Source: a virus
DNA length: 64,000 nt
IMG/VR virus record: IMGVR_UViG_3300048813_000107
Coordinates: 1-64,000 of that record
Reading direction: 5' to 3' (one strand)
The position numbers and the translations under genes are program-made. The notes under the pieces were generated by a model. The model was given only the letters and a program-made list of their open reading frames with translations, made no database searches and was not told where the DNA came from. Shown one piece after another: positions 5,227 to 40,786 of the stretch (position 1 is its first letter; every line of letters begins with the position of its first letter).

Positions 5227-5228
5227 CA

Positions 5229-5489: not shown

Positions 5490-5492
5490 CCG

Positions 5493-5729: not shown

Positions 5730-5735
5730 GCACCG

Positions 5736-6041: not shown

Positions 6042-6044
6042 GCA

Positions 6045-6323: not shown

Positions 6324-6326
6324 ACC

Positions 6327-10617: not shown

Positions 10618-10668
10618 GGGAATGTATCTTACCGTTAGCCAGCCGGATTTCTGCGGATGCTGTGATGC

Positions 10669-10687
10669 TCACGTGAACGTGTCGTGA
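10669..10687. promoter_or_regulatory. Inverted repeat, candidate operator
   Basis: TCACG (10669-10673) and CGTGA (10683-10687) form an inverted repeat in the divergent intergenic region, with CACGTG at its left arm. A good candidate binding site for the XRE protein at 10724. Confidence 0.4.
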
Positions 10688-10723
10688 TACGGCATTCCGG
10701 GCCCCGGTCCCTACGCTGTTCCC

Positions 10724-10954: not shown

Positions 10955-10988
10955 CCCTCCCCCGCCGTGCGCTAATTACGGTGCGGGA

Positions 10989-11018
10989 TTGACGATGTAC
11001 GGATTGTGACACTATGGC
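10989..11018 (+). promoter_or_regulatory. Promoter of the serine recombinase gene
   Basis: TTGACG (10989-10994) is followed after 18 bases by TATGGC (11013-11018), four to ten bases before the recombinase start region (ATG 11022). A leaderless or nearly leaderless message is likely. Confidence 0.4.
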
Positions 11019-11021
11019 CGG

Positions 11022-14505: not shown

Positions 14506-15536
14506 GCCAGGTGATTACCGGCTCCTATGCGCTGCACAACGGCGATGCGATGGAGGTGATGCCGGACTACCCGGATGGCTGCATGCACGCCGTGGTCTAC
14601 TCCCCGCCGTTCGCCTACGGAGACGAGGGGCCCGGCGGCGCGGGCCTGTATAAGTACAGCTCAAGCGAGCGGGACTTGTCGAACGCGGGCGGCTACACCG
14701 AGTTCTTCAAGATGTACGGCTATTTCGTCCGCGAGCTTCACCGGCTGACGATGCCCGGCCGGATCAACGCCGTCCACTGCATGGACACCCCGATGGGGAA
14801 TAGTGGCGGCGACGCGCTGGCAGACTTCCCCGGTGACGTGATCCGGCTGCACCGCGAATCGGGGTTCGACTACATCGGCCGCCACGTCATCTGGAAGGAA
14901 CCGCTCGCGGTCCGGAACCGGACGATGGTCAAGGACCTCACCCATAAGACGACCGTGGTGGACTGCACCGACGCAGGGCTGGCATCGGCGGACTGGCTGC
15001 TGATCTTCCGCAAGCGCGGTGCGAACCCCGTCCCGGTGACCCATCCGAACGGGTTCACCGAGTACTACGGCGCCGCGCGGCCGCCGGCCGACGTGCTGAA
15101 GTACCGGGGCTGGACGGGCCCGCAGACGCAGAACCTGTACTCCCACTGGATCTGGCGGCAGTACGCCTCTCCGGTCTGGGATGACATCCGCGGCAATATG
15201 GGCCAGTGGGACGACCGCAAGCACATGGCCGTGCTGCCGCACCGCGAGGCCCGCGACGAGGAAGACGAGAAGCACGTCCACCCCCTCCAGCTCGATGTGT
15301 CCCGCCGGGTTGTCGACATGCGGACCAATCCGGGCGAGAGGGTTTTCTCCCCGTGCATGGGTGTCGGTTCCGAGGTGTTCGCCGCGATAGAGCTGGGCCG
15401 CCTCGCCGCTGGCGCCGAACTGAAGCCGAGCTACTACCGGCAGGCCGTGACGAACCTCGCGCTGCTCGAGCAGAAGAAGCCGAAGCAACTCGGCTTCGAT
15501 GACGAGGAGCCCGCCGAGGAACGCGCGGCCTCCTAA
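14490..15536 (+). CDS. Site-specific DNA methyltransferase (N4/N6, beta-type order)
   Basis: A 348-residue protein. Catalytic motif IV is SPPF (residues 38-41). SAM-binding motif I comes near the C-terminus as FSPCMGVGS (286-294), preceded by HPLQ (264-267), the permuted order of beta-class amino-methyltransferases. It would methylate adenine N6 or cytosine N4 in phage or host DNA, using SAM. GTG 14490 is preceded by GGAGGTGCCCGC and lies inside the helicase end. No restriction nuclease is adjacent, so it is probably an orphan enzyme protecting or marking DNA. Confidence 0.85.
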   Translation: MGKVLSQVITGSYALHNGDAMEVMPDYPDGCMHAVVYSPPFAYGDEGPGGAGLYKYSSSERDLSNAGGYTEFFKMYGYFVRELHRLTMPGRINAVHCMDTPMGNSGGDALADFPGDVIRLHRESGFDYIGRHVIWKEPLAVRNRTMVKDLTHKTTVVDCTDAGLASADWLLIFRKRGANPVPVTHPNGFTEYYGAARPPADVLKYRGWTGPQTQNLYSHWIWRQYASPVWDDIRGNMGQWDDRKHMAVLPHREARDEEDEKHVHPLQLDVSRRVVDMRTNPGERVFSPCMGVGSEVFAAIELGRLAAGAELKPSYYRQAVTNLALLEQKKPKQLGFDDEEPAEERAAS

Positions 15537-15621
15537 CCACCACAGACCCCCGTCCCCCGCAACACCGGGACGGCCCCAGCAAGCCACCACCGCCAGCGAG
15601 ACGAGGAACAGCCGGTCATCG

Positions 15622-15683
15622 GGCACGTGCCAGCGCGGAGCATCGCAACCCTCGCTGGCATGTGCCGGGGGACCGACCCCCGG
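15622..15683 (+). terminator. Two hairpins upstream of the VWA gene
   Basis: GGCACGTGCCAGCG (15622-15635) pairs with CGCTGGCATGTGCC (15653-15666) with one mismatch. CCGGGGG (15665-15671) pairs with CCCCCGG (15677-15683). Likely terminates the helicase-methyltransferase transcript or regulates the VWA gene. Confidence 0.55.
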
Positions 15684-15705
15684 ACAAAGAAGGATACGAG
15701 GAATC

Positions 15706-16443
15706 ATGACCACACCAGAGCGCACCGAGACCGGCGGCCCGTCACGCACCCCCAGGAGCGAGATCACCGCCGCCGTGTCCGGCAACCGCAAGAAGGAGCC
15801 GGTTCTCCTGCTCGACCTGTCCACTTCGATGGACTGGGACGCGGCGCAGGGAGGGCCCGAGTGGAACGGCCAGGGCGGCGGCAGGCGCGGCATCGTCATC
15901 GAGGCCCTGCACGGCCTGGTTTCCGCGCTGGAAGCGGAGGACAGCGAGGCGGCGGCGGAGCAGGCCGGCGGCAGCGATGACCTCGGCGGGCTGCTGACGC
16001 ACGGCTTCGCCAGCGGTCACGTGGAGATCGGCGACCTGAACTCTTCCAACCTGGAGCGCAAGCTCAACGCGATCCAGTGGGGCGGCGCGACGCACATCAT
16101 GCCCGCGTGGAAGGCGGCCCTCGCGGACTACGACGAGGAGTTCGGCGACAAGGACCCCGACGAGCAGCCAACCCTGCTGACCCTGGTCCTGACCGACGGC
16201 GAGGCCGATGACTGGGCCGAGTTCGTGCCGGTACTGGAGAAGGCTAGCCCGAAGCGGGTGTTCGCGGTCGCGATCGTCGGCCACGGTACCGCCCATGACG
16301 CCACCGTCCGCGCCTACCAGCAGGCGGCCGAGCGGAACCGGTCGCAGGACAAGTACGGCAAGGAACACGTCAAGGTCGTGTCGTTCGACTCGGTGACTGA
16401 CCCGAAGGAGATCGCGGCGGACCTGATCACGCTGATCAGCTAG
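15706..16443 (+). CDS. von Willebrand factor A (MIDAS) domain protein
   Basis: A 245-residue protein. The metal-ion-dependent adhesion site is complete: DLSTS (D37, S39, S41), T129 in GGATHIMP, and D164 in LVLTDGEAD. The whole protein is one VWA fold without signal peptide or membrane segment, so it is a cytoplasmic metal-dependent protein-binding module, similar in design to TerY-type VWA proteins. It lies between DNA modification and polysaccharide genes but has hairpins on both sides, so it may be its own transcription unit. GAGGAATC precedes the ATG. Partner unknown. Confidence 0.85.
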   Translation: MTTPERTETGGPSRTPRSEITAAVSGNRKKEPVLLLDLSTSMDWDAAQGGPEWNGQGGGRRGIVIEALHGLVSALEAEDSEAAAEQAGGSDDLGGLLTHGFASGHVEIGDLNSSNLERKLNAIQWGGATHIMPAWKAALADYDEEFGDKDPDEQPTLLTLVLTDGEADDWAEFVPVLEKASPKRVFAVAIVGHGTAHDATVRAYQQAAERNRSQDKYGKEHVKVVSFDSVTDPKEIAADLITLIS

Positions 16444-16573: not shown

Positions 16574-17767
16574 GTGCCCGACAGAATTGCCACGCCGGTA
16601 CTGTGGCCACGTTTCACCGAGGCCCCGACCGTGCCGCTCCGCCGGCTGCGCACTGATACTGAGCCTGCCAGGCCTCCCTGGGACTGGTTCCGGCCGTCGC
16701 TGCCTAAGAAGGCATACCGGAAGGTAGTCGCGATCGTTCCTGCCTGCAACGAAGCTGACGCGATCACTGCGACAGTCCGGGCCTTGCGGCAGCAGAGCCG
16801 CGCTCCTGACCGCATCGTGGTGGCGGTGAATAACACCACCGACAACACCGCCGGGCTGGCCCGTGAAGCTGGGGCCGAGGTGATGATCCTCGCGGACAAC
16901 AAGTTCATGAAGGCCGGGGCGATGAACCAGGCCCTCGACGCGGTGATGCCGGGTCTTGATGACGAGGACATGGTGCTGATCCAGGATGCCGATACCTGCC
17001 TGAATCCGGACTTCACGAAGTACGCCGTCGAGGCCATGCGGCCTGGCATCGGCGGGGTGTGCGCCCGGTACGACAACCCGGCCCCCCGCAACCTCATCGA
17101 GCGGCTCCAGGCCAGCGAGTTCACCCGGTCGCGCCGGAAGATCTCGCGGGCCCGCGGGAAGGTCCTGATCCTGGTCGGCATCGCGACCCTGTTCCGGGTC
17201 GGGGTCCTGCGCCACGTCCTGGCCGCCCGCGAGGCCGGGGAGCTGCCTGGCAGCCGCACCTACTACAACCTGACCTCGCTGTGCGAGGACTACGAGATGA
17301 CCCTGGCCATGCGGACGCTCGGGTACAGGCTGACCAGCCCCGCCCGGTGCCGGCCGCTGACCCACGCGATGCCGACCCTGGGCAAGCTGCACGGCCAGCG
17401 GGTGCGGTGGACCCGCGGGGCCCTGGATGACCTCCAGGCCTACGGCCTGACCGGGATCACCCGGACCTACATCCTGGCGCAGGTAGGCCGTCTGCTTTCC
17501 ATGCTCTCGCCGGTCCTGTTCGCGGCCTACCTGCTCTCGCTCCAGCTCACCTACGGGCGCATCGTGTGGGACCTGCCCTGGGTGTGCGTCAATGCCCTGT
17601 TCATCGGCGAGCGGGTCATCACCGTGCGCTCAGCCGGCTGGAGGGCCATGCTGCTCTCGGTGCTGCTGCTGCCGGAGCTGGCTTACGACTGGTTCATGGC
17701 TGCGTGCTACCTGCAGGGACTGGTGCTGCACCTTCGCGGCACCGCCCCGGTATGGAAGGAGACCTGA
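16574..17767 (+). CDS. Processive family 2 glycosyltransferase (PgaC/BcsA-like)
   Basis: A 397-residue protein. It has a cytosolic GT2 domain with PACNEADAI, DAD (138-140), CED (237-239) and Q275-x2-R278-W279, the motif set of processive beta-glycan synthases (cellulose, chitin, poly-GlcNAc). Three C-terminal hydrophobic segments follow (about 298-327, 330-350, 358-388). The two N-terminal helices of PgaC are missing, so the 50-residue N-terminus is soluble. Downstream lie a one-helix peptide, a deacetylase and a GH16 enzyme in overlapping frames, so it probably makes an extracellular polysaccharide. The product sugar cannot be told from sequence; a poly-GlcNAc-like polymer fits the neighbouring deacetylase. 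Confidence 0.85.
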   Translation: MPDRIATPVLWPRFTEAPTVPLRRLRTDTEPARPPWDWFRPSLPKKAYRKVVAIVPACNEADAITATVRALRQQSRAPDRIVVAVNNTTDNTAGLAREAGAEVMILADNKFMKAGAMNQALDAVMPGLDDEDMVLIQDADTCLNPDFTKYAVEAMRPGIGGVCARYDNPAPRNLIERLQASEFTRSRRKISRARGKVLILVGIATLFRVGVLRHVLAAREAGELPGSRTYYNLTSLCEDYEMTLAMRTLGYRLTSPARCRPLTHAMPTLGKLHGQRVRWTRGALDDLQAYGLTGITRTYILAQVGRLLSMLSPVLFAAYLLSLQLTYGRIVWDLPWVCVNALFIGERVITVRSAGWRAMLLSVLLLPELAYDWFMAACYLQGLVLHLRGTAPVWKET

Positions 17768-17922
17768 TGTTCGGCGACACGATGACGCCGGATACGGCCC
17801 CCGGCATCCTCGGGCTGCTCGTGCTGCTGGTGACCCTGCTTTTCATCGGGCTGGCCCTGAACAGCCTAATGCCCCGCCCGGAGTGGCTGTACCGCCTGCT
17901 CACCAGGGAGAGGCACCGGTGA
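17767..17922 (+). CDS. One-helix membrane peptide of the polysaccharide cassette
   Basis: A 51-residue protein starting at a TGATG overlap. A single hydrophobic segment (GILGLLVLLVTLLFIGLALN) is followed by a basic tail. Its position between synthase and deacetylase recalls the small PgaD/IcaD partners of PgaC/IcaA, but sequence similarity cannot be judged at this size. The stop overlaps the next start. Confidence 0.65.
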   Translation: MFGDTMTPDTAPGILGLLVLLVTLLFIGLALNSLMPRPEWLYRLLTRERHR

Positions 17923-19028
17923 TATCTCCCCCGGCGCACCGCGGCATGCGGCGCTACCTGCTCGGCATCCCCGGCTCGATTCTTGGCCTCGCCGTCGTCG
18001 CCATCATTGTCGTCTCCGTCTGGCATCCCGGCACGAACCCGGCCGGGCCGGGGGCAAGCACCGACGGCGGCGGGCTGCCGGGAGCGCACCCGGGAGCGGT
18101 AACGGTCACCGTCCCGTACGTCCGCACCTACGTCCGCAAGGTCGCCCGCATCCCGGTGCTGGCCTGGCACCAGGTCATCGGCGGGGTCGCGGCGACGCCG
18201 GCCGAGGACGTGATCTGGAACTTCGGCAGGGACTGCAAGCCGTCCGCCGCGGTCTGCGATGCGCCGGGCAATCCCGAGACGGTCAGCCTGGCCCAGCTCG
18301 GCGCGGAGCTGGGATGGCTGAAGCAGCAGGGCTACCACTCCATCACGGCCGCCCAGTACTACGCCTGGGACGAGGGAAAAAGAGTCGCGCTACCGTCAAG
18401 GCCCATCTTGCTGACCATTGACGACGGCACGCTGAACTCCTACGTGAACGTCACCGCCGTGCTCCAGGAGTACGGCTACAGCATGGTCGCCTTTATCGTC
18501 AGCCAGTTCGCTGACGGGGCGGCCGCGAACCAGGAGCCGTACGCAGGGTGGGATGCCACCTGGGCGCAGCTGAAGGCACTGCCTGCTGCCCAGTGGTCTT
18601 TCGCCTTTCATGCCGGGGCGCACGGCCACAACGTGACGTTCCCGGATAACCCCGGCTGCACGTACTACTACCCGTGCCAGCTGCCGGGCGAGACGACCGC
18701 GCAGTATGAGCAGCGGGTGTCTGGTGAGATCAGCGCGGGCCGCAGGGCGGAGATGGCCGAGCTGGGCGCGCGGTTCGACACGGACATGTGGGCCGTGCCG
18801 TGGAACGATCTCGGCAACCAGCCGAACCTGCCCAGCGAGGGCACGGCGGGAACCTGGCTGGCGTCATGGGCGGCCACCCGGTTCCCGGTCATCTTCATCC
18901 AGGACCCGCTGCACAACGGGAAGCAGCACGAGCGGTACCGGCTGGAGATCCAGGGCACCTGGTCCCTGAAGACGTTCAAGAACAACTTCCTCAGCAATGC
19001 CCGGGACGGATTTTTCAACGCGAGATGA
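17919..19028 (+). CDS. Membrane-anchored polysaccharide deacetylase (CE4, PgaB-like)
   Basis: A 369-residue protein starting with GTG in a GTGA overlap. A signal anchor (about 13-35) puts the rest outside the membrane. The CE4 domain has TIDDG (166-170, the TFDDG motif) and FHAGAHGH (H231, H235, H237) as the metal site. The N-terminal PVLAWHQV resembles the start of PgaB/IcaB N-deacetylases, which act on poly-GlcNAc. Predicted to trim acetyl groups from the polymer made by the adjoining synthase. The C-terminal 130 residues complete the barrel. Confidence 0.8.
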   Translation: MISPPAHRGMRRYLLGIPGSILGLAVVAIIVVSVWHPGTNPAGPGASTDGGGLPGAHPGAVTVTVPYVRTYVRKVARIPVLAWHQVIGGVAATPAEDVIWNFGRDCKPSAAVCDAPGNPETVSLAQLGAELGWLKQQGYHSITAAQYYAWDEGKRVALPSRPILLTIDDGTLNSYVNVTAVLQEYGYSMVAFIVSQFADGAAANQEPYAGWDATWAQLKALPAAQWSFAFHAGAHGHNVTFPDNPGCTYYYPCQLPGETTAQYEQRVSGEISAGRRAEMAELGARFDTDMWAVPWNDLGNQPNLPSEGTAGTWLASWAATRFPVIFIQDPLHNGKQHERYRLEIQGTWSLKTFKNNFLSNARDGFFNAR

Positions 19029-19930
19029 CGGCGGGGAACGGGGAGTACACCCGCCGGCGGGCTCTCATGATGGGCCTGGCAGCACTAGACACCGTAGTTA
19101 TCGGCAGCGACGACACGCAAGGAGCCCCCATGACCGAGCAATCGACAGGCCCGGCGGTCTTTTCCCCGGACGGAAGCCACACGCATTCCGTCCCTACTCC
19201 GGCCCCGGTGCCGGCGCCGGTACCAATACCAAAGCCCTACACCTTCTTCGATGAGTTCAGCGGCGCGGCGGGCACCGCACCGGATCCGGCGAAGTGGGCT
19301 CCGCAGACCGGCCGGGGAATATGGGGAACCGGGGAGGTCGAGAACATGATCAACTCGACCACCACCGCTTACGTGGACGGGAACAGCAACCTTGTCATCG
19401 CGCTGGCCAGCGACGGTCAGGGCGGCTTCAACGGTGCCCGGCTGAACAGCAAGTTCAGCGGCTCGTACGGCACGTGGGTCATGCGCGCGCAGGTCCCTGT
19501 TGCTCTCGGCGCGTGGCCCGCGCTGTGGTTCATGGGCAACAAGGGGCAGTGGCCGGCTAACGGCGAGGTGGATCTGGTCGAGATCTACGGGCCGAACGTC
19601 AACGGCGGTCAGCTCCAGACCACCGTCCACAGCAGCGGGGCGAACGGCCAGCCCAGCTACTATGCCAACCGCGCTACGGACGGGAAGTTTCACGTCTACC
19701 AGATGGTCTACTCGGAGACTGGTTTCGTGTTCTCAGAGGACGGCACCCAGTACCTCGCCGTCGCCGAGTCGCAATTCCCGGCCGGCGGATACCCCTTCAA
19801 CGGCAACGGCGGGATGTACTGCATCCTCAACGTCGCAGCTGGCGGGGAAGGTCCTGGCGGGGCAGTCCCGCTGGCAGATGAGCTGCCGATCAGGATGCTC
19901 ATCGATTACGTCCACTTCACGGCGGCGTGA
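19025..19930 (+). CDS. Secreted GH16 glycoside hydrolase
   Basis: A 301-residue protein. The N-terminus TRRRALMMGLAALD resembles a twin-arginine signal, followed by a Pro-rich linker and a GH16 beta-jelly-roll. The catalytic signature EVDLVE is at 181-186 (nucleophile E181, D183, acid/base E186). GH16 enzymes cut or transglycosylate beta-glucans and galactans. An ATG at 19130 with a perfect AAGGAG would remove the signal, so the first ATG (ATGA overlap) is preferred. In this cassette it may remodel or release the polymer, or open the host wall polysaccharide. Confidence 0.85.
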   Translation: MTAGNGEYTRRRALMMGLAALDTVVIGSDDTQGAPMTEQSTGPAVFSPDGSHTHSVPTPAPVPAPVPIPKPYTFFDEFSGAAGTAPDPAKWAPQTGRGIWGTGEVENMINSTTTAYVDGNSNLVIALASDGQGGFNGARLNSKFSGSYGTWVMRAQVPVALGAWPALWFMGNKGQWPANGEVDLVEIYGPNVNGGQLQTTVHSSGANGQPSYYANRATDGKFHVYQMVYSETGFVFSEDGTQYLAVAESQFPAGGYPFNGNGGMYCILNVAAGGEGPGGAVPLADELPIRMLIDYVHFTAA

Positions 19931-20569: not shown

Positions 20570-20929
20570 TCAGGCGGCCTTCAGCGCGGCCGAGGCGAGA
20601 GCCAGCGCGCTCTGCCCTGCCGCGATGGCCTTGGGAACCAGCGCCCTCACGGCGGCGAACAGGGCAGCGTCAGCGGGGTCTACGAGGTCCAGCAGCGCCA
20701 TGGCGTCGCCGCTGAAGTCCAGGATCAGGCTAGCGTGGCCGGTCAGGAAGCTCCGGGAGTCCGCTGCGATGGCGGCGAGGTCAGCCTCGGCGTGCTGGCC
20801 GTGGCCGTGGAACCAGTCGGCGACGTGACCGAGCGGCCCCTCATGCGGCGCGGGTGCGGCAGGTGACGGGGGCACGGCGGTCGGGGGCGTGATCACCGGA
20901 GCTGAAGGCTCGGGTGCGGAGATGGACAT
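20570..20929 (-). CDS. Hypothetical late protein
   Basis: A 119-residue protein, the last gene of the late operon. A Pro/Ala-rich N-terminal 30 residues is followed by Ala-rich helices (AEADLAAIAADSRSFLTGHA). No strong membrane segment. GAAAGGA lies before the ATG. It could be a tail-tip accessory or lysis-related protein; no family recognised. Confidence 0.55.
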   Translation of the reverse strand: MSISAPEPSAPVITPPTAVPPSPAAPAPHEGPLGHVADWFHGHGQHAEADLAAIAADSRSFLTGHASLILDFSGDAMALLDLVDPADAALFAAVRALVPKAIAAGQSALALASAALKAA

Positions 20930-20957
20930 GGCTGTCCTTTCATGCGGTGGAGGGGGT

Positions 20958-22952
20958 TCAGGCGGTCAGGCCCGCGAACGCCCCCCCGCGGGCAGGAGTG
21001 ACGGGCGGGCAGGTGAACGTGTCGGTCTGGGTGACCCTGGCGACCTGTGCGTCAGCGTCCCAGCCGGTGAACGACACGGTGATCGTGTGCCCGTCGTCGG
21101 TGATCTGGATCCGGCCGTACAGCGCGCAGCTGCCGCCGGAATTGTCCCAGAAGCTGTTCCACACGCTGGTGTTGAGGCCGCCGCCCGTGTTGGCCATCGG
21201 GGCCGCGCAGTACACCGGGAAGCCGCCCCAGGAGTTGTCAGCCCCGGTGATGGTGCCCACGAGGTGGCTGTCCCCGTGCCACCACATGAGCTGGCCGGCC
21301 TGCGCGGCGTTCGCGGCGATGAAGGCCATGATCGCGCTGCGCTCGGTGGAGTAGTTCCACCACTTGTCCTGGCCCTCGCTGTCGAGCAGCGTGCTGGCCG
21401 GCCCGGCCCACTGGGTGTCCCCCACGATGATCTTGAGCGGCTCGGGCTGGATCAGCTCGGACTCAAGCCACGCCAGCTGCTGCGCGCCCAGCATCGTCTT
21501 GCTGCCGTTGTCGGTGTTCGCTCCGGGCGAGCGGTCGATCGAGCGGATGTCGATCATGATGAAGCGGACCCGGCCGCACACCCAGGACTGCCACAGCCCG
21601 TGGACGGGGGAGTTTACCGTGTCGCCGAGGGTGGCCATCGGGTAGACCTGCTGCGCCGCGGCGATGTTGCACGGGATGTAGGGCACCGCGGAGGCGGGCC
21701 CGCTGTCGCCGTTGTCCGGGCCGGCCTCGTGGTCGCTGCGGCAGTAGTAGCCCCACGCGCGGCCGTGCATCATGCTGTAGCTGCTCGGGTAGCCCGCGGC
21801 CGCCGAAGCGCTCGACCCCACGCCGGTCAGCGCGATCTGCGTCTCGTAGACCTGCGTCTGCGTGAAGCTGTCCAGGGCCTCGGTGTCGCTGTAACTCTGG
21901 TCGCCGGTGAAGATGTTCAGGTCCGCATTCCACGCCGTCCAGTCGTCGATGGCAGCGGTGTCGGTGGCCTGCGGGATCACGCATGAGACCAGGGCCACCC
22001 GGAACGACTGCGGCGAGCCGGCCGGCGGGAGGGTCTTGCACATCCCGATCGGGCCGAGCGGCGTCTCACCGCCGCCGCTGGGCGTGTTGGCCAGCTGGTA
22101 GTAGTACTGCGTCCCGGGCGAGAGGTTCGCGGCGGTGTGGCGGACGTAGCCGTAGGCGTCCGGGGTCTGCGCGGCGGCATAGGTGACACCGGTGGTGAGC
22201 GCCGCATTGGTGGCCACCTTCAGGCGCACGGTGAACGCCCCGGCCAGCTTGGACACCACCTGGAACTGATTGCCCGTCGGCGCCCCCGCGACGGATTGCC
22301 GCCACGTCGCGGGCAGCGCACCCTGCGCGGCGATCGTCATGACCTGCACAGCCCACGTCGTGCTGGTGATCGTGGCGCTGGCCGTCACCGCGGCTGCGGA
22401 CGCCAGAGCCTGGCAGGCGACGGTCAGGTACGCATTCCCGCTGGTGTGGACCTGCGCTACCTGCGTCCACCCGCCGGGCAGCGTGGGAGCACCTCCGCCG
22501 CTGCCGCTGGAGAACGTGGCGATCGCGAGCTCGGAGGAGCTCCCCAGTGCGGCGTTCGTCACCGCTGACGGGCTGGTGCTGCTGCCGCCGGCCTGGCCGT
22601 ACTGGTCGAGCAGCGTGCCCGTCGTAGCGGCCCCGTGGACGCCGGCGACAGCCAGCTCTTTCGTGTCGGTGCTGTTGGAGAACAGCACGCTGATCGTGTC
22701 GCTGGTGCTGAGCGCGTTCGCGTCCTGGCAGTAGAACTGCCACACGCCCTGGCTGCTGATTCCCTGCTGGACGATGCTGTAGACGTTGCCCTGCGTATCG
22801 CTGACCAGCCAGACGTTTACCCCGACCGCACCGCCTGTGCTTGCGGACAGGACGATCGTGTCGCCCGCCGCGACTGCGCTGGTGATCGCGGCGGTGACCG
22901 TCGATGCGGTCGACGGTGCCGCAGTCCCGGCCTCGTAGACGGTGTAGGTCAA
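20958..22952 (-). CDS. Tail protein with PhoD-like metallophosphatase domain
   Basis: A 664-residue protein. The TTG start overlaps the previous stop (TTGA); a longer frame to 23213 is rejected. The N-terminal half is beta-rich and Ser/Thr/Gly-rich, like phage fibres. The second half has a fibronectin-like unit and a domain with PhoD signatures in order: FRVALVSC, FTGDQSYSD (metal-binding GD), CRSDHEAGPDNGD, IMIDIRSIDR, TMLGAQQLAWLESEL and WWHGDSH. PhoD enzymes are Ca/Fe phosphodiesterases; Bacillus PhoD trims wall teichoic acid. Located among tail fibres, it may attack a phosphate-containing wall polymer during adsorption. The catalytic inference rests on motifs only. Confidence 0.75.
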   Translation of the reverse strand: MTYTVYEAGTAAPSTASTVTAAITSAVAAGDTIVLSASTGGAVGVNVWLVSDTQGNVYSIVQQGISSQGVWQFYCQDANALSTSDTISVLFSNSTDTKELAVAGVHGAATTGTLLDQYGQAGGSSTSPSAVTNAALGSSSELAIATFSSGSGGGAPTLPGGWTQVAQVHTSGNAYLTVACQALASAAAVTASATITSTTWAVQVMTIAAQGALPATWRQSVAGAPTGNQFQVVSKLAGAFTVRLKVATNAALTTGVTYAAAQTPDAYGYVRHTAANLSPGTQYYYQLANTPSGGGETPLGPIGMCKTLPPAGSPQSFRVALVSCVIPQATDTAAIDDWTAWNADLNIFTGDQSYSDTEALDSFTQTQVYETQIALTGVGSSASAAAGYPSSYSMMHGRAWGYYCRSDHEAGPDNGDSGPASAVPYIPCNIAAAQQVYPMATLGDTVNSPVHGLWQSWVCGRVRFIMIDIRSIDRSPGANTDNGSKTMLGAQQLAWLESELIQPEPLKIIVGDTQWAGPASTLLDSEGQDKWWNYSTERSAIMAFIAANAAQAGQLMWWHGDSHLVGTITGADNSWGGFPVYCAAPMANTGGGLNTSVWNSFWDNSGGSCALYGRIQITDDGHTITVSFTGWDADAQVARVTQTDTFTCPPVTPARGGAFAGLTA

Positions 22953-24499
22953 GGCCCGACCGCCATCCACAGCGCGCCCGCCGTGCTGCTCATGGCCGAC
23001 ATGGTGACCGACGCGGGCGGGGACGTGAGAGTACTCCCGGCCGACGCCGCCTTCAGCGTCACCGCAGCGGCCGAGCAGCCGAGGTTGACCACTGCGGCGC
23101 TGGACGCGATCCCGGACCGGAACACTGGCATCGTGCCCGCCGAGCCGATGAGGATCGCCCCGTAGTAGTCCCCCGCGGCCAGCGCGGGACCGGAAACCCA
23201 CGGGACGGTCCACAAGGACGCGCTGGTGGTCAGGGCCGTGTCGGCGGACCGCTGGGCGGACTGGGCGACGATCGTGCCGGAAACACTGAACAGCACGGCG
23301 TAGACGTTGGCGGGGGTGGCCCCGGCGGTGCTGATGAAGGCGTAGAAGCTGCCGCTGGTGCCGCCCTCAGGCACGCGGAGGCGGGTGCACTGCAGGACTC
23401 CGGCGGTCGGCGTGAACGTGGTGGCCGCGAACACGAACGGCATCGTGAGCCCGAGTATGGTCCCGAGGCCGCCCATCGCCCCGTACGTGTCCGGGTGGAC
23501 GTGCCCGGCGTCGGCCCACTTGCCGGTCGCGCCGGCCGCCTGGGCTCCCGCCGCGGCGAAGTCGGCGGCGGTGGAGTCCGCCGCGGTGAACGCCGGCGGG
23601 GCCGAGCCGCCCGCCCCCATGAGCAGGGTGCCCGCCGCCCCCGCAGCGATCTGCTGGAGGGTTCCTGTGCTCGTGGTGCCGGCTGCGAGCAGCTCGTACG
23701 CGGTCAGGGCAGCCAGCCCGGTCCCGCCCTGGGCCACGGTGGCCGGGGTCGCGTTCACCGACTGCGGGACGAAGCCGACGCAGTACCAGGTGGTCGTGGC
23801 CAGGTCGTAGCGGAACGCGATGAAGTCGTGATAGGCCGGGGTGGCGGACAGGACCGGCGTGCCGATCGAGGCGGGGAAGCTGTAGGCCGAGCCGTAGGCC
23901 AGGGTCCGGGAGCCGGTGGCGTCCTGGATCACCTCGAACGCGATGGCCTGGCCATCGGCCGGGTTCGACGGGTTGGCCAGCGTCCGGTTACCGCCGAGGG
24001 TGACCCGGAAGACATTCGACAGCGCCGCGTTGACCACGATCGAGGAAGCGTCGGTCAGGGCCGAGGGGACGGTGCTGAACGCCCCGGTGACCGCGCCCCC
24101 GGTGAGCTGCAGGAACAGCGCCTCCAGCTGCGTCAGCGGCAGGTCATCCGCCAGCACCGTCCAGACAGCTGAACCGCTGTCGTACTCGAACAGCACGCCC
24201 TGGCTCGCCAGCGTCAGCGAGTCCGTCGTAGAGCCGCCCGGCTTGTTGATCACGTCCGAGCCCTGGCACTGCACCGTCACCGAGTTCCCGGTGCCCAGGA
24301 TGACCTGTTTCACCGCGTTCAGCGTGGACGACGCCGGGGCCTGCGGCAGCTTCACGGTCCCGCTGCCGCTGGTCGTGTCCACGGCGGTGATCTCGTCCGC
24401 CAGCGCGGTATGGGCCGCGCCGGGAGACGGGACCGTGAACAGGACGCGGGTCAGCGTCAGGCCGCCGCCGCCGGGGTCGGCGGGAGGGTAGAGGGGCAT
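22949..24499 (-). CDS. Tail fibre / receptor-binding protein
   Basis: A 516-residue protein. The middle (FRVTLGGNRTLANPSNPADG and GQAIAFEVIQDATGSRTLAY) is a repeat unit common in phage tail fibres. The last 170 residues form a beta-sandwich-like module also present at the ends of the proteins at 31432 and 46099. No enzyme motif. Likely part of the host-recognition apparatus, between the lysozyme region and the PhoD-like tail protein. Confidence 0.75.
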   Translation of the reverse strand: MPLYPPADPGGGGLTLTRVLFTVPSPGAAHTALADEITAVDTTSGSGTVKLPQAPASSTLNAVKQVILGTGNSVTVQCQGSDVINKPGGSTTDSLTLASQGVLFEYDSGSAVWTVLADDLPLTQLEALFLQLTGGAVTGAFSTVPSALTDASSIVVNAALSNVFRVTLGGNRTLANPSNPADGQAIAFEVIQDATGSRTLAYGSAYSFPASIGTPVLSATPAYHDFIAFRYDLATTTWYCVGFVPQSVNATPATVAQGGTGLAALTAYELLAAGTTSTGTLQQIAAGAAGTLLMGAGGSAPPAFTAADSTAADFAAAGAQAAGATGKWADAGHVHPDTYGAMGGLGTILGLTMPFVFAATTFTPTAGVLQCTRLRVPEGGTSGSFYAFISTAGATPANVYAVLFSVSGTIVAQSAQRSADTALTTSASLWTVPWVSGPALAAGDYYGAILIGSAGTMPVFRSGIASSAAVVNLGCSAAAVTLKAASAGSTLTSPPASVTMSAMSSTAGALWMAVGP

Positions 24500-25207: not shown

Positions 25208-25996
25208 ATGCCCGGTGACATCCTCGGCCTGATCGACGGCGCGCTCAGTGACTGGTCGGCCAGCGAGGACGCGATGCGGTGGCGGCCGGAAGGCGGCGAG
25301 GAACGAGAGCCGGCCCAGATGTCGTGGCGCCCGGCATTCACCCCGGTGCTTCCCTCCGCGTACGGCCTGATGGTGTCCGCTTCGGACGTGCAGGTGGGCA
25401 TGATGCTGCTGCAGCGCGTTGCCGGGGGCTACGAAGGCCGGCTTTACAAGCTGCCGCCCGGCGGCAGCGGCCAGATCCCGCTCGCGGACCTTGAGCTGGC
25501 CGGCACAGGCCTGTATGACGAGAACGGGACGCTGATCAGGGAGCTTTTAGCGAGACTTCGGCATCCGGCAGAAGGCCAGAAGCTCCGCCTCGGTGCCACT
25601 GAACAGGTCCGTGTCGACCGGCGAATCGCCCGCCTGCCAGAACGTCCAGGCCGTCCACGGCGCAGGCACGGCAGGCCGCTCAGCGCCGTAGTCCGCGATC
25701 CACAGATGCCAGGACTCCATCCCTGCGCAGTTGCCCGCCTCAGCGAACGCCGGGTAGGTGTACACCAGCACCCGGTGTCCCGGTGCGAGCTCGTTGACGG
25801 CCCGCAGGAACGTGACGGCAGATCCGGCGGTGAACTCCGGTGTCATCCCGTCTGCGGTCTCCAGGTCCAGGACGAAATTGTCACCCGGCAGCAGCCCGTG
25901 GGCCCGGACGGTGGCGACGAACCGCTGAGCCTGCGCCCGCGGATCCTCGGAGGGATGGAAGAAGTGGTACGAAAATCGGCAGAGCGTGGGCGATAG
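25208..25996 (+). CDS. Embedded rightward accessory gene, 3' end runs antisense to lysozyme
   Basis: Rightward gene inside the leftward late operon. The credible part is about the first 115 residues (MPGDILGLIDGALSDWSASE then DAMRWRP and a beta-rich part with LYKLPPGGSG). From about 25547 the frame runs without a stop through the antisense of the lysozyme gene and becomes Arg/Pro-rich. The original stop has probably been lost by a frameshift near 25540, or the long tail is real but non-functional. ATG 25199 lies within the -10 box; ATG 25208 is preferred. Function unknown. Confidence 0.5.
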   Translation: MPGDILGLIDGALSDWSASEDAMRWRPEGGEEREPAQMSWRPAFTPVLPSAYGLMVSASDVQVGMMLLQRVAGGYEGRLYKLPPGGSGQIPLADLELAGTGLYDENGTLIRELLARLRHPAEGQKLRLGATEQVRVDRRIARLPERPGRPRRRHGRPLSAVVRDPQMPGLHPCAVARLSERRVGVHQHPVSRCELVDGPQERDGRSGGELRCHPVCGLQVQDEIVTRQQPVGPDGGDEPLSLRPRILGGMEEVVRKSAERGR

Positions 25997-26155
25997 CTCC
26001 CACATCGCATCCCAATTTTCGGCGAAGTCCGGGTCCGTGAAGCCGAGACCTTCGGTGGCCTTGGCCATGCCGAAGGCGATCTTCCCGCGTTCGGCCGCCC
26101 AGGGCCAGCGCGCGCCCTGTGCATTGGAGATGTCGATACCCTGCGGTTCAGTCAT
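25547..26155 (-). CDS. Endolysin, GH25 lysozyme
   Basis: A 202-residue protein. The GH25 features are GIDISNAQG at the N-terminus, AFGMAKATEG, FVLDLETADG, YTYPAFAEAG and LWIADYG...FWQAGDSP. This is a one-domain N-acetylmuramidase without signal peptide or wall-binding module, so it needs a holin or another route out. ATG 26155 follows GGGGGAGCGCG. An overlapping zinc-ribbon peptide and membrane proteins upstream complete the lysis region. Confidence 0.85.
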   Translation of the reverse strand: MTEPQGIDISNAQGARWPWAAERGKIAFGMAKATEGLGFTDPDFAENWDAMWELSPTLCRFSYHFFHPSEDPRAQAQRFVATVRAHGLLPGDNFVLDLETADGMTPEFTAGSAVTFLRAVNELAPGHRVLVYTYPAFAEAGNCAGMESWHLWIADYGAERPAVPAPWTAWTFWQAGDSPVDTDLFSGTEAELLAFCRMPKSR

Positions 26156-26273
26156 CGCGCTCCCCCTTGCGTGTCCGGTACTCCCTGATCCACCGTTCGG
26201 TGCAGTCGCCGCACAGGCAGGTGATGGCACTGAGCAGGCGGAAGAACCGGCACCGATTGCAGTAGCCGCTCAT
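26148..26273 (-). CDS. 41-residue zinc-ribbon peptide
   Basis: ATGA overlap with the upstream membrane gene and 8-base overlap with the lysozyme start. Sequence MSGYCNRCRFFRLLSAI then CLCGDC gives two CxxC pairs 15 residues apart, a minimal zinc ribbon, followed by a basic tail. Too short for most gene finders. Function unknown; translation coupling with the lysozyme is evident. Confidence 0.65.
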   Translation of the reverse strand: MSGYCNRCRFFRLLSAITCLCGDCTERWIREYRTRKGERDD

Positions 26274-31300: not shown

Positions 31301-31402
31301 GATCTCGAAGGCGTTGACCGGGGCCGCCGCCGCCGCCGAGTAGCCGCCAGGGACGGCCAGGCCGGGGACGGCCAGGCCGGGAGTGGAGACGGGAGCTGCC
31401 AC
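28400..31402 (-). CDS. Minor tail protein with LamG-like central domain
   Basis: A 1000-residue GTG-start protein. The first part is Ala/Thr/Ser-rich beta structure. Residues about 140-290 (TPADEMEWVTLNDSALTPAE and YIWQRNALGW) resemble distal-tail or hub regions of siphovirus minor tail proteins. Residues about 410-560 have a concanavalin/LamG look (TVKGWFSADFF, SASWHCIDLQLTTTTWTVLV, SHWAVWGSILPPW), likely glycan binding. The C-terminus (VEIYRISNMSGRKMAFG) is tail-hub-like again. It follows the spike gene and probably forms part of the tail tip. Confidence 0.7.
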   Translation of the reverse strand: MAAPVSTPGLAVPGLAVPGGYSAAAAAPVNAFEIAFITGDNTSATQAFAPAGWTTLPAVTASNGTDHSCDVVLTAAWTVTSSSESVTGTAGTAEDLSGSILGVQAGAPSPIPEDSAVAPGGAGRTILEAAIGSGFQTPADEMEWVTLNDSALTPAEEDKCFWAWEETSTGIPYALGQLQSSEGSVTLDNGPGNFTPSNAAGLYYPGVTTGTPLRLRIMLGTVGGVPVDRTYIWQRNALGWTEKRDEDQHSYVETGLTDGWSVAGVPCPTPYRGEVLGTAPGDAPHSWWAMDDQPLAGGVQPASLASSAPGNTNTMSIVASPGGITAGDSYTTTGIDATATGGGSTIVPPSVAVSAVGQQQGWNYGDPQSSPASYSTGNPVTSSPGSAAWQQTGLLGSGGANTWFLAALDPAYPPLSGGITVKGWFSADFFASATGWKDNGTGQYYPIAGQPCSVITLATLSTGSAPVAILQLSLAGALELITYNGPTATTHPIYSSSDLRSASWHCIDLQLTTTTWTVLVNGGLTANVSGTAAGMTAGWTWLTLNGDYGANGGSSPADIQHGGNVAYSHWAVWGSILPPWRLLSQYSAAITGSGLLPAPQTVAVAAVINELPTGYTPDGTLYQGSYGYAGGTSLVPFTFSGEVAAAAGSYTSGPSARAVTAGIGVSGSHSYYGNAIWLSYTGLAPQYALYTAAAANAETSAATVCGSGDSFSSGFGAAAADAGVCSTGGGTGASPPSAPTPLGDTVAQRLERLLGLGGMTAPARAIDATAAELVQAALDAGGQQCGANCQNIVSSDYGMWFVDNCNTQSYRSRAHLSSDTVIWYLSSAGPAYGYPYQPGMDFGNDPQYVTNVIQVAPYSPDGASLPFITPSDATAANASQRQYGPRPLATGTTSYLQSAARIQAAADWILATYGSLERRVLTLKVDAAGYPAAWPYVAGANVSDLVQVTDQPMSGGPLSVEIYRISNMSGRKMAFGANGSRPEASLTITADPLPPGGYFT

Positions 31403-36298: not shown

Positions 36299-39200
36299 CT
36301 AGCCCGCCCGGCCCGGCCTGATTATTCCGGTCTGCCAGTTTGCCGCGCCCTTTGCCCGGAGTCCCTTTGTTACCGCGTTGACGAGATCCTGCTGCGTAGA
36401 GACGCTGCCGTTCACCGTCATGTTTATTGTGATGTGCGTGTCTCCGCCGCCCCCGCCGCCGCCTGAGCCGCTCCCGCCGCCATGCCCGCCGCCGTAGCCC
36501 GCGTAGGCCATGCCCGGGTGGTAGGCGCCTGTCATCCGGCTGCCCATCCGGCCCACCGCGGCGACAGCCTGCCCGGCCCCGGCGTCGACGCCCATCGCCA
36601 CGCCCGCGGGGACCATGGCGCCCCGCTCGGCGAACACCAGCGACGGGGACTTGATCTTGAGGTCATGCTCGATCGTCGCCACCATCGACCTGGCCATCGC
36701 CGAGATCGCCGCGTCAACCGTCCCGAGCTGGGACTCCAGGCCCTGCGCGAGACCCGCGCCCGCCTGGACCCCCGCCTGGTACATCGCCGGGCCGCCCACG
36801 CCGCCCAGCTGGGCGGCTGACGCCTGGATCTGGGATTGCAGCTTGTTGACCTGCCCGATCGCGCCCTTCCCGCCGGAGGTCAGGCCCTCAGCGACAGGCA
36901 GGCCGGACGACGCCCCGGACTGGACGATCTGGTTCAGGCTGGCCGAGTTCAGGCCCATCTTCTTCAGCTGGCCGGCCTGCTGCGCGAACTGCGCCTGGTC
37001 TGCTGCCTGCTCCTGCATCCCGGTGATGGTCGCCGAGGCGGCCAGCGGGCCGTCGCTCGCCGCGAGCGACGGGGTGTACGTGCCGGCGCTCATCACGCCG
37101 GTGCTGCTGAGCACCTGCTGGGCGATCTGCTGGGCGTCGGTGATCTCCGTCTCCAGCACGGTGCGCCGCGCCGACAGCGACTGGAGCTTCGCATTGTCAG
37201 CCGTCAGCATCCTCGTCAGCGCCGAGTCCTGCGGCTGGCTGACCTGCCCGGCGGCCAGGGCGTGGGCCACGTCGCCCTTGAGGGTGGAGATCGTGCTGAT
37301 GATCGTGGTGATGTCCTGCGGCCGGGACCCCTTGCCGGTGACGGCCTGCATGGCCGCGTCGATTGCGGAGGTGCCGCCCTGCAGGCCCTGGGTAAGGCTG
37401 GTGATGGTGGCGGCCGACAAGGTGAGCGCGGACGTCTTCACGGCGGTCGTGCCGCCGGTGATGCCCTTCGCCAGGCCGGCGGAGGTGTCCACGCCGACCG
37501 CCTCAGTGACCTTCGACGGGGAGAAGCTTTTCAGTACGCCCTTCATGGCGCCCTCGACAGCGCCTGCGACATGCTCGGCCGCGCCGACGACAGCGCCGAT
37601 CCCGGCCTCGATCCCGTGCGCGAGCCCGGCGACCGCTGACGACCCGATCGATTCCAGCTCGCCCGGCATCCGCGCCAGGGCAGCCGCCGCTTTCCCGCCG
37701 ATCGAGCCCACTTCGGATACGACCCGGCCGGCCCCGGACTCAGCCGCCGACGCCGCCCCGGACATGGCCGAGGACACCGCTGACTCCACGGCATGGAACC
37801 CGGACGACGCCGACGCGGCGGCCTTGGAGCCCGCGCCTGAAACCTCCGCCGCGATCCCCGACAGCGCCGCCCCGGCACCGGACTTCGCACTGTCGAACGC
37901 CGACTCGATCGCGTGCCCGGCCGAGGTGAACGCCCCGGTGTCCGGTGGCTTGACCTGCGCGAATTTGACGGAGTCACCCCCGCCGCCCCCGCCTACCCGC
38001 TCCATCTGCGGGGGGCCGCCGCCGCCGAACAAGCTGGCGATCGAGTGACGCGCGTCATCGAACAGGCTGCGGGGGATTCCCCCGGCGATCTGGCTTCCGG
38101 CCGACTGCGCCCGGCTGATGTCCTTGCCGATGTCGAGGCCGATGTTCGACAGCCCGAGCTTGCCGATGATCCCGCCGACAGCCCAGTCGGGGCTCATCGG
38201 GTTCGACTTCTGGACGTCCTGGCTGATCTGCCCGGCAGGGGTTCCCTTCGGGGCCAGCGAGTCGCTGTAGCCCCGGAGCATCAGCCCCGCCGTGACTCCC
38301 GCGGCAATCGGGGTCACCGCGGCGGCCAGGCCCGCGCCGTCCAGGCCGCCCTTGCTTGCCACCTTCGCGAACAGGCCCCCGGCGCCTGCACCTTCGGCAG
38401 TACCTGCAGCGTCCCCTTCGGCAGTCCGGGCGGCTCCGGCCTCGGCACCCGCCGCGCCGCCGGCGCTGCCCTCCTTGAGGGTTGCCGCCGCCTCGCTGAG
38501 GTCGGCCGCCGAACCGCTAAGGTCACCCGCCGAGCCCTTCAGGCCTGCCGCCGCGCCGTCGAGCCCTGAGCCCTGGCCGAGACCCGACAGCTTGGACAAG
38601 CCGGGAATGTTCAGCGTCTCCGCAACCTTGCCGACACTCGCCAGCGCAGTGGCCCCGGCGCTGGCGACCTTCCCCGCGACCGCGACGCCGGCCAGGACAC
38701 CCCCGGCCTCAACGAGCGGCTTGGTCAGGCCCGGATTGCTGGCGAGGAACCCGCCGACGTCCGACAATCCGTGCATGAGGCCCGTCAGGGCAGGCAGCGC
38801 CACCTGCCCGGCCTCGGTGGCCACGGCCTCAGTGGACTTGGTGAAGCTGCCGAGCTGGAAGTTCAGCGTCGACTGGACCGCGGACCAGCCCTTCACGTTG
38901 TCCCCGGCGTGCTGCGCGCTCGCTGCGACCGCGTCGACGTTCGCCTTGGCGGTCCCGGCGTGCTGCCCCGTCAGCATCAGCGCCGTCTGCAGCCCGACGG
39001 TCCCGCCGAGGATCTTCGACATCGCGGCCGAGTACACCTGCGCGTCGGGCTGGCCGGACTTCAGCGCGGCGTTGAAGCCGTGGGCGGCGTTCGCCGTCGT
39101 GGCGAACTGCGAGAGCAGGTTCTTCTGGCCGGCCGATTCGGACCCGGAGAAAACCTCAGCGTTGTACTGCTTCGCCGAGATAGTCCCGTCCAGGTAGGAC

Positions 39201-40786
39201 TGCGCGACCTTCGAGATCGCGGGCGGCATCGCCTTCATCATCGTCGTGGCGTCCTGAGCCGCCGACGCGCTCTGGTTGAACGTCTTGAGCATCACCAGGC
39301 CGCTGGGCCCCATGGACTTCATGACCGCCGTCTGGATCTCATCCAGGGTGCCGGTGATCCCGGTCTTGCCGAGGTTCTTGGCGATGCCGACCGGGTTCAG
39401 GCCGAGCTGCTGCATCTCCCCGGTCTGCACCGTGTTCGGGTTCTGCAGCGACCCGATGGTGTGCCGGAGGTTCTGGGCGGCCCAGTCCGGGCTCATGCCC
39501 ATGCTGGTCATCGTGGCCAGTGCCCCGGCGACCTGCGGAAACGAGACGTGAGCGGCGGAGGCGACCGGCAGGACGGCAGGCAGTGCCCCGACCGCCCCGG
39601 CCATCGTCATCTTGCCCTGGCCGACCATCGTGATGATCTCGTTCATGTCCGACATGGCGGTCTGCGAGGTCGTCTTGCCCTTCTGGGGGCCGTACGCGTT
39701 CATCAGCGACGTGAGCGCGTTGCCGACCTCGGACAGCGGGGCGCCCTCAGCCTGCGCGCCCTGCGCCGCGGCCTTCAGCACGCCGAGGCCGGCCTGACCG
39801 TGGAACCCGGCCGAGTTGATCATGTACGCGCCCTGCGCCAGCTGGGACTGCGACGTGTTGGTCTCACCCGACAGCTTCAGGATCCCCGCCGAGTCCATCG
39901 GGAGGCTGGCCTGACTCTCCCCGGCGCTGGTGTACAGCCGGGTCACCTGCGTCTGGAGCTGGGCCGCCTTGTCGACGCCGTACGCCAGCGCGGCCGCGCC
40001 GCCGAGCGCCAGCAGGTGGTACTTCGTCGCGCTGGCCTCGGCTGCGCTCGCGTCGTCAGCGGCCTGCTGGGCGGCGACCTTCCTCGCCGCCTGCTGCTGC
40101 GCCACCGCCGCGTCCTGCTCGACGCTCGAGGTGGCCAGGGAAGGTGCGGCCACGGCCATCGCCGCGTCACCCTTCGCCAGCGACAGCGAGCTATCCGCCG
40201 ACCCCGCCGCGATCTTGTCCTGCATGGCGGAGGTCTCGGCGATGGTTGCGCTGATCTCCGCCCGGAGCGCCGCCACCTGCGCGGCAGCCTCGTCCGAGGA
40301 GGTCCCGATGCCCTTGATGCCGTCGCCGACCGCGCCGAGCCCGGCGCCCTCCTCGGCTACGCCGCCGAGCGCATCACCGAGCTTGCCGACTTCGCCGGCC
40401 GCGCCCGCAGCCCCTTCGCCGAGGTCATCGAGCTTGCCGCCGCTCCCGGCGATCTTGTCCATGCTCGCCGAGATGTCCGCCGCCGCGGTGTCGTACTTAG
40501 CGACGAGATCATCCAGCCCGGCCCCGCCTGCCAGCGCCCCGGCGTCACCGAGGCTCGCGATCTCGTCGCGGATCTTGCCGATGCTCCCCGACACCTTCGC
40601 CGCGGCATCGTTCCAGGCAGCGGCGATGTCGCCAGCCCCGGCCCCGTCAGCCGCCCCGCCTCCGAGGGAGGCCAGCTCGTCCTTGAGCTTGCCGACAGAC
40701 TCTGAAGCCTTGTCGAAGGCGCCAGCCAGGTCGTCGACGGCGCCGAGGCCGGCGACATCGACGGTGATGGTCTCTTCGATCGCCAC
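36299..40786 (-). CDS. Tail tape measure protein
   Basis: A 1495-residue GTG-start protein, the longest in the window, directly after the tail assembly genes. Almost entirely helical and Ala-rich, with long coiled stretches at the N-terminus (DDLAGAFDKASESVGKLKDE repeated in variants), a mid-region with the conserved phage layout SGETNTSQSQLAQGAYMINS and PQVAGALATMTSMGMSPDWA, hydrophobic patches, and a Gly-rich segment before the end. Sets tail length and passes into the host on infection. By the usual rule of about 1.5 angstrom per residue the tail is near 220 nm. Confidence 0.9.
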   Translation of the reverse strand: MAIEETITVDVAGLGAVDDLAGAFDKASESVGKLKDELASLGGGAADGAGAGDIAAAWNDAAAKVSGSIGKIRDEIASLGDAGALAGGAGLDDLVAKYDTAAADISASMDKIAGSGGKLDDLGEGAAGAAGEVGKLGDALGGVAEEGAGLGAVGDGIKGIGTSSDEAAAQVAALRAEISATIAETSAMQDKIAAGSADSSLSLAKGDAAMAVAAPSLATSSVEQDAAVAQQQAARKVAAQQAADDASAAEASATKYHLLALGGAAALAYGVDKAAQLQTQVTRLYTSAGESQASLPMDSAGILKLSGETNTSQSQLAQGAYMINSAGFHGQAGLGVLKAAAQGAQAEGAPLSEVGNALTSLMNAYGPQKGKTTSQTAMSDMNEIITMVGQGKMTMAGAVGALPAVLPVASAAHVSFPQVAGALATMTSMGMSPDWAAQNLRHTIGSLQNPNTVQTGEMQQLGLNPVGIAKNLGKTGITGTLDEIQTAVMKSMGPSGLVMLKTFNQSASAAQDATTMMKAMPPAISKVAQSYLDGTISAKQYNAEVFSGSESAGQKNLLSQFATTANAAHGFNAALKSGQPDAQVYSAAMSKILGGTVGLQTALMLTGQHAGTAKANVDAVAASAQHAGDNVKGWSAVQSTLNFQLGSFTKSTEAVATEAGQVALPALTGLMHGLSDVGGFLASNPGLTKPLVEAGGVLAGVAVAGKVASAGATALASVGKVAETLNIPGLSKLSGLGQGSGLDGAAAGLKGSAGDLSGSAADLSEAAATLKEGSAGGAAGAEAGAARTAEGDAAGTAEGAGAGGLFAKVASKGGLDGAGLAAAVTPIAAGVTAGLMLRGYSDSLAPKGTPAGQISQDVQKSNPMSPDWAVGGIIGKLGLSNIGLDIGKDISRAQSAGSQIAGGIPRSLFDDARHSIASLFGGGGPPQMERVGGGGGGDSVKFAQVKPPDTGAFTSAGHAIESAFDSAKSGAGAALSGIAAEVSGAGSKAAASASSGFHAVESAVSSAMSGAASAAESGAGRVVSEVGSIGGKAAAALARMPGELESIGSSAVAGLAHGIEAGIGAVVGAAEHVAGAVEGAMKGVLKSFSPSKVTEAVGVDTSAGLAKGITGGTTAVKTSALTLSAATITSLTQGLQGGTSAIDAAMQAVTGKGSRPQDITTIISTISTLKGDVAHALAAGQVSQPQDSALTRMLTADNAKLQSLSARRTVLETEITDAQQIAQQVLSSTGVMSAGTYTPSLAASDGPLAASATITGMQEQAADQAQFAQQAGQLKKMGLNSASLNQIVQSGASSGLPVAEGLTSGGKGAIGQVNKLQSQIQASAAQLGGVGGPAMYQAGVQAGAGLAQGLESQLGTVDAAISAMARSMVATIEHDLKIKSPSLVFAERGAMVPAGVAMGVDAGAGQAVAAVGRMGSRMTGAYHPGMAYAGYGGGHGGGSGSGGGGGGGDTHITINMTVNGSVSTQQDLVNAVTKGLRAKGAANWQTGIIRPGRAG

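Follow-up and report, generated by a model that had tools for sequence, protein, structure and literature searches.

Does the phage whose genome is analysed here carry, on its tail, an enzyme that cuts phosphate polymers of the host wall? The question is raised by one minus-strand gene in a window of 64,000 nucleotides (the whole stretch of DNA analysed, taken from a virus record of 74,380 bases), whose product had been read as a tail protein with a PhoD-like phosphodiesterase domain and, from there, as a tail-borne wall phosphopolymer hydrolase.

Family, fold and layout of the PhoD protein

The protein matches the Pfam PhoD family (PF09423) at 37.2 bits (cut-off 27, E 2.4e-9) and the phage family PHROG 13624, listed as "hydrolase", at E 9.8e-59 over profile positions 15–638 of 651. 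Because the gene falls in this known family, a PhoD protein in a phage is not new. In a tblastn search of 50,697 phage records, 42 records matched, 31 of which are Streptomyces phages, and the matched proteins are annotated as hydrolase, phosphatase, phosphoesterase, phosphodiesterase or purple acid phosphatase. Single sequences gave little: phmmer with the window protein alone found nothing among PDB sequences, a scan of IMG/VR with its domain returned zero relatives, and a scan with the homologue L011 returned only its own contig. Among sequence searches, B. subtilis PhoD (PDB 2YEQ) was reached by profiles only; a family profile of 16 sequences matched it at E 1.7e-36. An AlphaFold model of residues 213–664, built from 29 sequences (pLDDT 89.8, pTM 0.92), has 2YEQ as its top fold match (Z 32.9, 393 residues, rmsd 3.0 Å, 20% identity), and the full-length model also matches 2YEQ (Z 31.7). 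The Pfam and PHROG matches, together with a profile and a model that both lead to 2YEQ, bear out the original prediction of a PhoD-like domain. The second fold match is a purple acid phosphatase (Z 28.0), which has a tyrosine-ligated iron motif like that of the window protein. This identity was rejected, since its ligand set, a His2Asp1Asn1 second-metal site and Asp rather than Cys (PMC4223295), differs from that of the window protein, which has GDxH instead of a first-position His and Cys324 instead of Asp.

The open reading frame spans 23213 to 20958. GC-rich DNA inflates open reading frames, and the most likely start is TTG 22952, with GTG 22970 as the alternative; the former sits in a TTGA overlap with the stop codon of the fibre-like gene upstream. 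With this start the protein has 664 residues, and the range first proposed for the feature, 20958–22010, holds the catalytic domain, but the gene is longer. The four motifs on which the domain had been recognised were all found in the order given and in one minus-strand frame (Table 1). A plus-strand ORF (20889–21986) that overlaps the PhoD domain was discounted, given the strong family matches of the protein on the minus strand.

Table 1 Features of the PhoD gene, its product and neighbouring tail genes in the window.
Feature	Position	Strand	Remark
PhoD-domain gene	20958..22952	-	664 residues; Pfam PF09423 over cut-off, PHROG 13624 end to end
N-terminal module, residues 1–212	22317..22952	-	inside PHROG 13624 match; low pLDDT in full-length model
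PhoD_N-like beta-sandwich domain, ~residues 213–309	22026..22316	-	PF16655 below cut-off; strands in model
PhoD catalytic domain, ~residues 313–650	21003..22016	-	Pfam, family profile, AlphaFold model, fold match
Cys324	21981..21983	-	equivalent of iron ligand Cys180
Asp351 to Tyr354 (GDxxY)	21891..21902	-	equivalents of Asp207 and the iron-binding Tyr; invariant in 74/74
Ser406-Asp407-His408	21729..21737	-	Ser replaces calcium ligand Asp265; Asp407 = Asp266
Asp512	21417..21419	-	acid confined to Ser265 proteins; candidate for a relocated metal ligand
Asp561-Ser562-His563 (GDxH)	21264..21272	-	correspond to Asp436 and the His at the second position after it; Asp and His invariant in 74/74
Motif FTGDQSYSD	21885..21911	-	
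Motif SDHEAGPDNGD	21705..21737	-	
Motif TMLGAQQLAWLESEL	21453..21497	-	
Motif WWHGDSH	21264..21284	-	
Fibre-like gene	22949..24499	-	directly upstream of PhoD, 4-base overlap; weak PHROG tail assembly match
Tape measure gene	36299..40786	-	PHROG 2723, E 2.6e-54; marks tail module; upstream of PhoD

The PhoD part makes up the last 450 residues. The preceding PhoD_N-like domain scores 21.9 bits against PF16655, below the cut-off of 30, but in the model the alignment with 2YEQ already begins at residue 5. The N-terminal module of the phage protein is absent from B. subtilis PhoD; it is 31% identical to an N-terminal part of the relative L069 and probably serves attachment or adhesion. By a crude hydropathy look, the N-terminus is not signal-peptide-like. 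Terminal modules vary among the relatives while the PhoD domain is kept, and in some relatives fibre-like modules stand on both ends.

The metal site and the Ser265/acid512 association

The site of B. subtilis PhoD is reported to contain one Fe and two Ca ions; the variants C180A, D265A, N271A, N272A and D436A abolish activity, and D207A and D266A reduce it drastically (PMC4223295). The Fe(III) ligands of the family are Cys (or Asp), Asp, Tyr and His, and the same report describes the calcium ligands as close to invariant across it. The window protein keeps all Fe(III) ligands (Cys324, Asp351, Tyr354 and His563) and the calcium ligands Asp266 and Asp436 (as Asp407 and Asp561). It lacks the calcium ligand Asp265, which is Ser406 here, and its Asn271-Asn272 region reads Pro412-Asp413-Asn414, shifted by one. 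Because Asp265 is Ser, it is a variant and not a canonical three-metal PhoD. Two of these points, the retained iron ligand Cys324 and the Ser at the first Asp of the usual DDH motif, are absent from the original prediction, which had named a site missing several metal ligands as evidence against itself. By that measure the site is altered, not dismantled: a single calcium ligand has gone, for which there is a candidate replacement, and the Asn pair reads ambiguously.

In the clade of the window protein (10 nonredundant proteins), 114 of 414 columns are invariant, and these include Cys324, Asp351, Tyr354, His408, Asp512, Asp561 and His563. Column 407, the equivalent of Asp266, is Asp in seven members and Asn in three. 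The metal site is under constraint, because the iron ligands, the Asp436 equivalent and the acid at 512 are invariant where so few columns are. Within the Ser265 group, L012, L005, L006 and L039 have Asn, Thr, Cys or Gly where the motif His would follow the Asp, and this His is therefore dispensable there.

The loss of Asp265 was followed across the family. The input consisted of 86 sequences (77 locus proteins, the window, seven from named phages and a second gene of L036); L096, whose start is missing, was dropped, and the 85 remaining domains plus a 2YEQ fragment were reduced to 74 by removal of copies at 95% identity. Loci on duplicate contigs (L030, L031, L083, L085, L086, L089, L092, L095, L100, L101, L104 and L105) were left out, and weak genome matches (L052–L067) were kept outside the 74-domain set and scored separately. 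Ser occupies position 265 in 30 of the 74 domains (2YEQ included). Column 512 holds Asp or Glu in 29 of these 30 proteins, compared with none of the other 44. Over 368 columns, column 512 scores 0.93 for association with Ser265 and the next best scores 0.54; it is thus more than a general clade signature, because no other column comes close. The Fisher p of 1e-19 is not usable as a probability, as the sequences are related. The one exception, L036, has Ala512 with Asp at 513, and a near-exception on the other side is the DDH-type L156, with Pro512 and Asp513. L036 also has two tandem PhoD genes (3940–7791 and 9293–12373) on one virus contig.

All but one of the 30 Ser265 proteins are from named phages or virus contigs; the other, L038, is in a Sphaerisporangium genome contig. 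A cellular control comprised 37 matches, among which L118, L122 and L124 repeat L039, L041 and L038, and L148 did not align. Asp265 is present in all of the other 33 actinobacterial PhoDs, with Gln at 512 in 29 of 29 readable sequences and an acid in none of the 29. B. subtilis PhoD likewise has Asp265 with Gln at 512, whereas the window protein has Ser and an acid. The 17 proteins from the 16 weak-match loci are all of the DDH type with Ser or Thr at 512; with the homologues L155 and L156 added, DDH goes with Ser, Thr or Pro. On a tree built without the trait columns, by a quick method and with no bootstrap, the best topology has three changes and supported branches force only one, which puts the count of independent events at between one and three.

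In the model, residue 512 (domain residue 300) lies two residues past a strand (294–298), and the other ligands likewise follow strands. Its column presumably matches the second-metal His of purple acid phosphatases. By its simplest reading, the association looks like a relocated carboxylate metal ligand in a phage PhoD subclass. What is new here is this phage-type change of the calcium site, in which the iron ligands are kept and Asp265 becomes Ser together with an acid at another column.

The altered site also leaves room for a protein without turnover, in which the rebuilt PhoD fold would be a receptor-binding domain for phosphate-bearing surface glycans. The loss of Asp265, with that of Asp266 in three of the ten clade members, the loss of the motif His in Samistivirus, Hortus1, A3Wally and L039, and the relatives with fibre-like modules on both ends are what such a domain would lead one to expect. 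A pure binder would have no need of a compensating carboxylate, however, and the iron ligands and the replacement acid are invariant where most columns vary; we regard a binding-only role as distinctly unlikely.

Gene context and evidence from virions

Transcription in the window runs from terminase (59241–61052) and portal through tape measure, tail genes and a GH25 lysin (25547–26230) to the fibre-like gene and PhoD. With the tape measure upstream and a fibre-like gene overlapping, the placement "among tail fibre genes" in the original prediction is a fair description of this genome. The fibre-like protein shares a C-terminal stretch (32% over 129 residues) with the protein of 31432–33777, and a homologue of its gene lies upstream of PhoD in nine of 14 close loci. 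The tail protein of 28400–31402 had zero matches in the phage collection.

The rest of the window contains several features outside the PhoD locus. Convergent with the PhoD gene, adjacent plus-strand genes (16574–19930) encode a family-2 glycosyltransferase, a weakly matched polysaccharide deacetylase (24.4 bits, cut-off 23.1) and a GH16 hydrolase; they look like a phage-carried surface-polysaccharide cassette and have zero homologues in the close loci L068–L081. The minus-strand portal gene (54431–57598) seems, from its sequence, to hold an intein: two intein-like boundaries lie within the portal match, C-YSDDTEVLTDRGW at the start and ...GYPSWCAN-T at the end, and the insert region has matches to the thymidylate synthase and ribonucleotide reductase families of phages. 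Another minus-strand gene (52633–54105) encodes a NUDIX-portal-related fusion, in which a NUDIX domain at the N-terminus is followed by a match to a portal family. A tyrosine integrase (9293–10315, minus strand) and a large serine recombinase (11022–12530, plus strand) lie close together, and the virus is therefore probably temperate. A plus-strand gene (15499–16443) has a DLSTSMD stretch, von Willebrand A-like by eye, with zero Pfam matches at E 0.001.

Altogether, 27 contexts of PhoD genes were examined. Tail, minor tail, fibre or tape-measure genes lie upstream in 12 (the window, P1312, L011, L018, L028, L029, L033, L034, L073, L078, L081 and L094), weak tail matches lie by the gene in two (L014 and L020), and a homologue of the window fibre-like gene is upstream in two more (L075 and L079). 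In five contexts (L068, L069, L070, L084 and Hortus1), the gene has head genes on one side and head-tail adaptor, head-to-tail or tape measure genes on the other, the placement of L070 resting on its upstream head gene only. Two groups (Samistivirus and A3Wally) have it outside the structural genes, among tRNA or nucleotide-metabolism genes, one group (cyanophages) has it beside a capsid fibre gene, and three contexts (L015, L035 and L036) are uninformative. The gene is thus in structural modules more often than not, yet is not tied to the tail. The closest relatives, L068–L070, whose domains are about 58% identical to that of the window, have it beside the major head protein; in these and in L084 it comes right behind the major head protein region, outside the tail module. 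L011 was rejected as a true context homologue: the upstream fibre proteins of L011 and the window are unlike each other, so the two contexts are alike by function only.

Three known relatives invite comparison. PHROG 13624 includes gp116 of the Streptomyces phage Samistivirus and its kin, which have the same N-terminal module and PhoD domain and Ser265 with an acid at 512, but in Samistivirus the gene lies among tRNA genes instead of tail genes and the motif His is Asn. In Thermobifida phage P1312, ORF22 is encoded directly after the tape measure and a tail protein, but it is of the DDH type, with Asp for Cys180 and a C-terminal carbohydrate-binding-type domain. Its authors proposed DNA degradation or teichoic-acid hydrolysis and favoured a secreted DNA-degrading role, and the virion table of that paper, with 24 of 93 proteins found, has no coverage entry for ORF22 (PMC4569894). 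The alkaline phosphatase D protein of Nostoc phage YongM has a homologous PhoD domain but differs in its DDH type, in its cyanobacterial host and in a gene that adjoins a capsid fibre gene. LC-MS/MS of concentrated YongM, as reported, ranks this protein seventh by score, at 35% coverage, and also lists the products of genes next to it; the authors placed the protein with DNA metabolism (PMC8875764). The detection makes a virion role credible; carry-over is possible because low-scoring replication proteins are also listed (PMC8875764). A viable, plaque-forming YongM mutant has a one-base deletion at 6196 that shifts the frame of this gene, which its authors list as possibly non-essential (PMC11356776). 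By our count, this deletion hits the gene past the PhoD domain, at about codon 487 of 627.

An enzyme of the infected or lysogenic cell, released or retained, might instead serve phosphate or nucleotide scavenging or act against other phages. The surroundings of the Samistivirus and A3Wally homologues would fit, as would the role favoured for ORF22 and its missing virion coverage (PMC4569894). In the window, however, the gene overlaps a fibre gene and the N-terminus does not resemble a signal peptide by hydropathy, most of the contexts examined are in structural modules, and the YongM protein was detected by mass spectrometry (PMC8875764); we consider a non-virion enzyme very improbable.

Proposed function and significance

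We propose that the protein is a virion-surface metallophosphoesterase of the PhoD fold, placed in this phage in the tail fibre region, that cleaves a phosphate polymer of the host surface with a site whose calcium half is remodelled; we give this reading an even chance. In this genome the protein would most likely be mounted in the tail fibre region, and its N-terminal module may anchor it on the particle or bind it to a ligand; during adsorption, the PhoD_N and PhoD domains would cleave phosphoester bonds of the host-surface polymer. The Fe(III) half of the site would be that of the B. subtilis enzyme (Cys324, Asp351, Tyr354 and His563), while in the calcium half Asp512, on a neighbouring strand, would take the place of Asp265, now Ser406. 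If the host is an actinobacterium, the substrate could be teichoic acid or another phosphate-linked wall polymer, and wall teichoic acid is then a fair guess.

This proposal is favoured by the family and fold, the invariant metal-site columns of the clade, the Ser265/acid512 association, the tail context in the window and 11 others, the YongM mass spectrometry, an N-terminus unlike a signal peptide and the variable terminal modules. Against it stand the loss of Asp265, which is essential in PhoD, the Asn at the Asp266 equivalent in three of ten clade members, the shifted Asn pair, the five head-side contexts, the two groups outside structural genes and the one to three swap events, as well as the P1312 homologue without reported virion coverage (PMC4569894) and the YongM frameshift mutant that still forms plaques (PMC11356776). 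The claim of a tail-borne wall phosphopolymer hydrolase is plausible and holds in part, for the PhoD fold, nearly all metal ligands and the tail-region gene, but "tail" is not general, as there are head-side relatives. A broader formulation, which we offer tentatively as possible, is that phages have evolved a PhoD subclass, with Ser for Asp265 and a carboxylate from the neighbouring strand (Asp or Glu at 512), that is displayed as an exchangeable capsid-or-tail module: a movable virion phosphoesterase and not a tail depolymerase proper.

Genomes of Sphaerisporangium, Microbacterium, Micromonospora and Actinomadura contain relatives; when the host of the window virus was sought among 394 genomes from the class of G001, only three had a match at E 1e-12, and the host was not found. 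Cyanophage hosts are Gram-negative and are not known to have teichoic acid. Teichoic acid cannot be the general substrate because the family reaches cyanophages. The narrower reading, a tail-borne wall teichoic acid hydrolase that works like B. subtilis PhoD, is one that we hold to be unlikely. It would accommodate the PhoD fold with most of its ligands, the tail position in the window and the relatives in actinobacterial genomes, and it agrees with the suggestion made for ORF22 (PMC4569894); it is at odds with the lost calcium ligand Asp265, the cyanophage homologues, the head-side relatives and the hydrolysis of phospholipids reported for the PhoD family enzyme of S. chromofuscus (PMC4223295). 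The idea of teichoic acid itself is not new, because the P1312 authors had already suggested it (PMC4569894). In enterococcal phages, tail-module GDPD phosphodiesterases have similarly been proposed to cut teichoic acid, but they belong to a different Pfam family, PF03009 (PMC10194240), to which the window protein has no match. In the open-licence literature, we found no paper on PhoD with phage tail fibre and teichoic acid, or with bacteriophage virions, which does not prove that none exists.

Should the swap be a genuine relocation of a ligand, nature would have supplied a test of how the site of a three-metal phosphatase can be rewired, and both types are represented by many homologues. If the PhoD protein is on virions, a phosphoesterase class distinct from GDPD would join the phage enzymes that act at the cell surface, and one would have to ask why some phages place the same enzyme near the head. 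Phage proteins whose only label so far is "hydrolase", "purple acid phosphatase" or "alkaline phosphatase D" would gain a role as well. For specialists, the interest lies in how the calcium site differs in the phage type and in the placement of the gene at head or tail.
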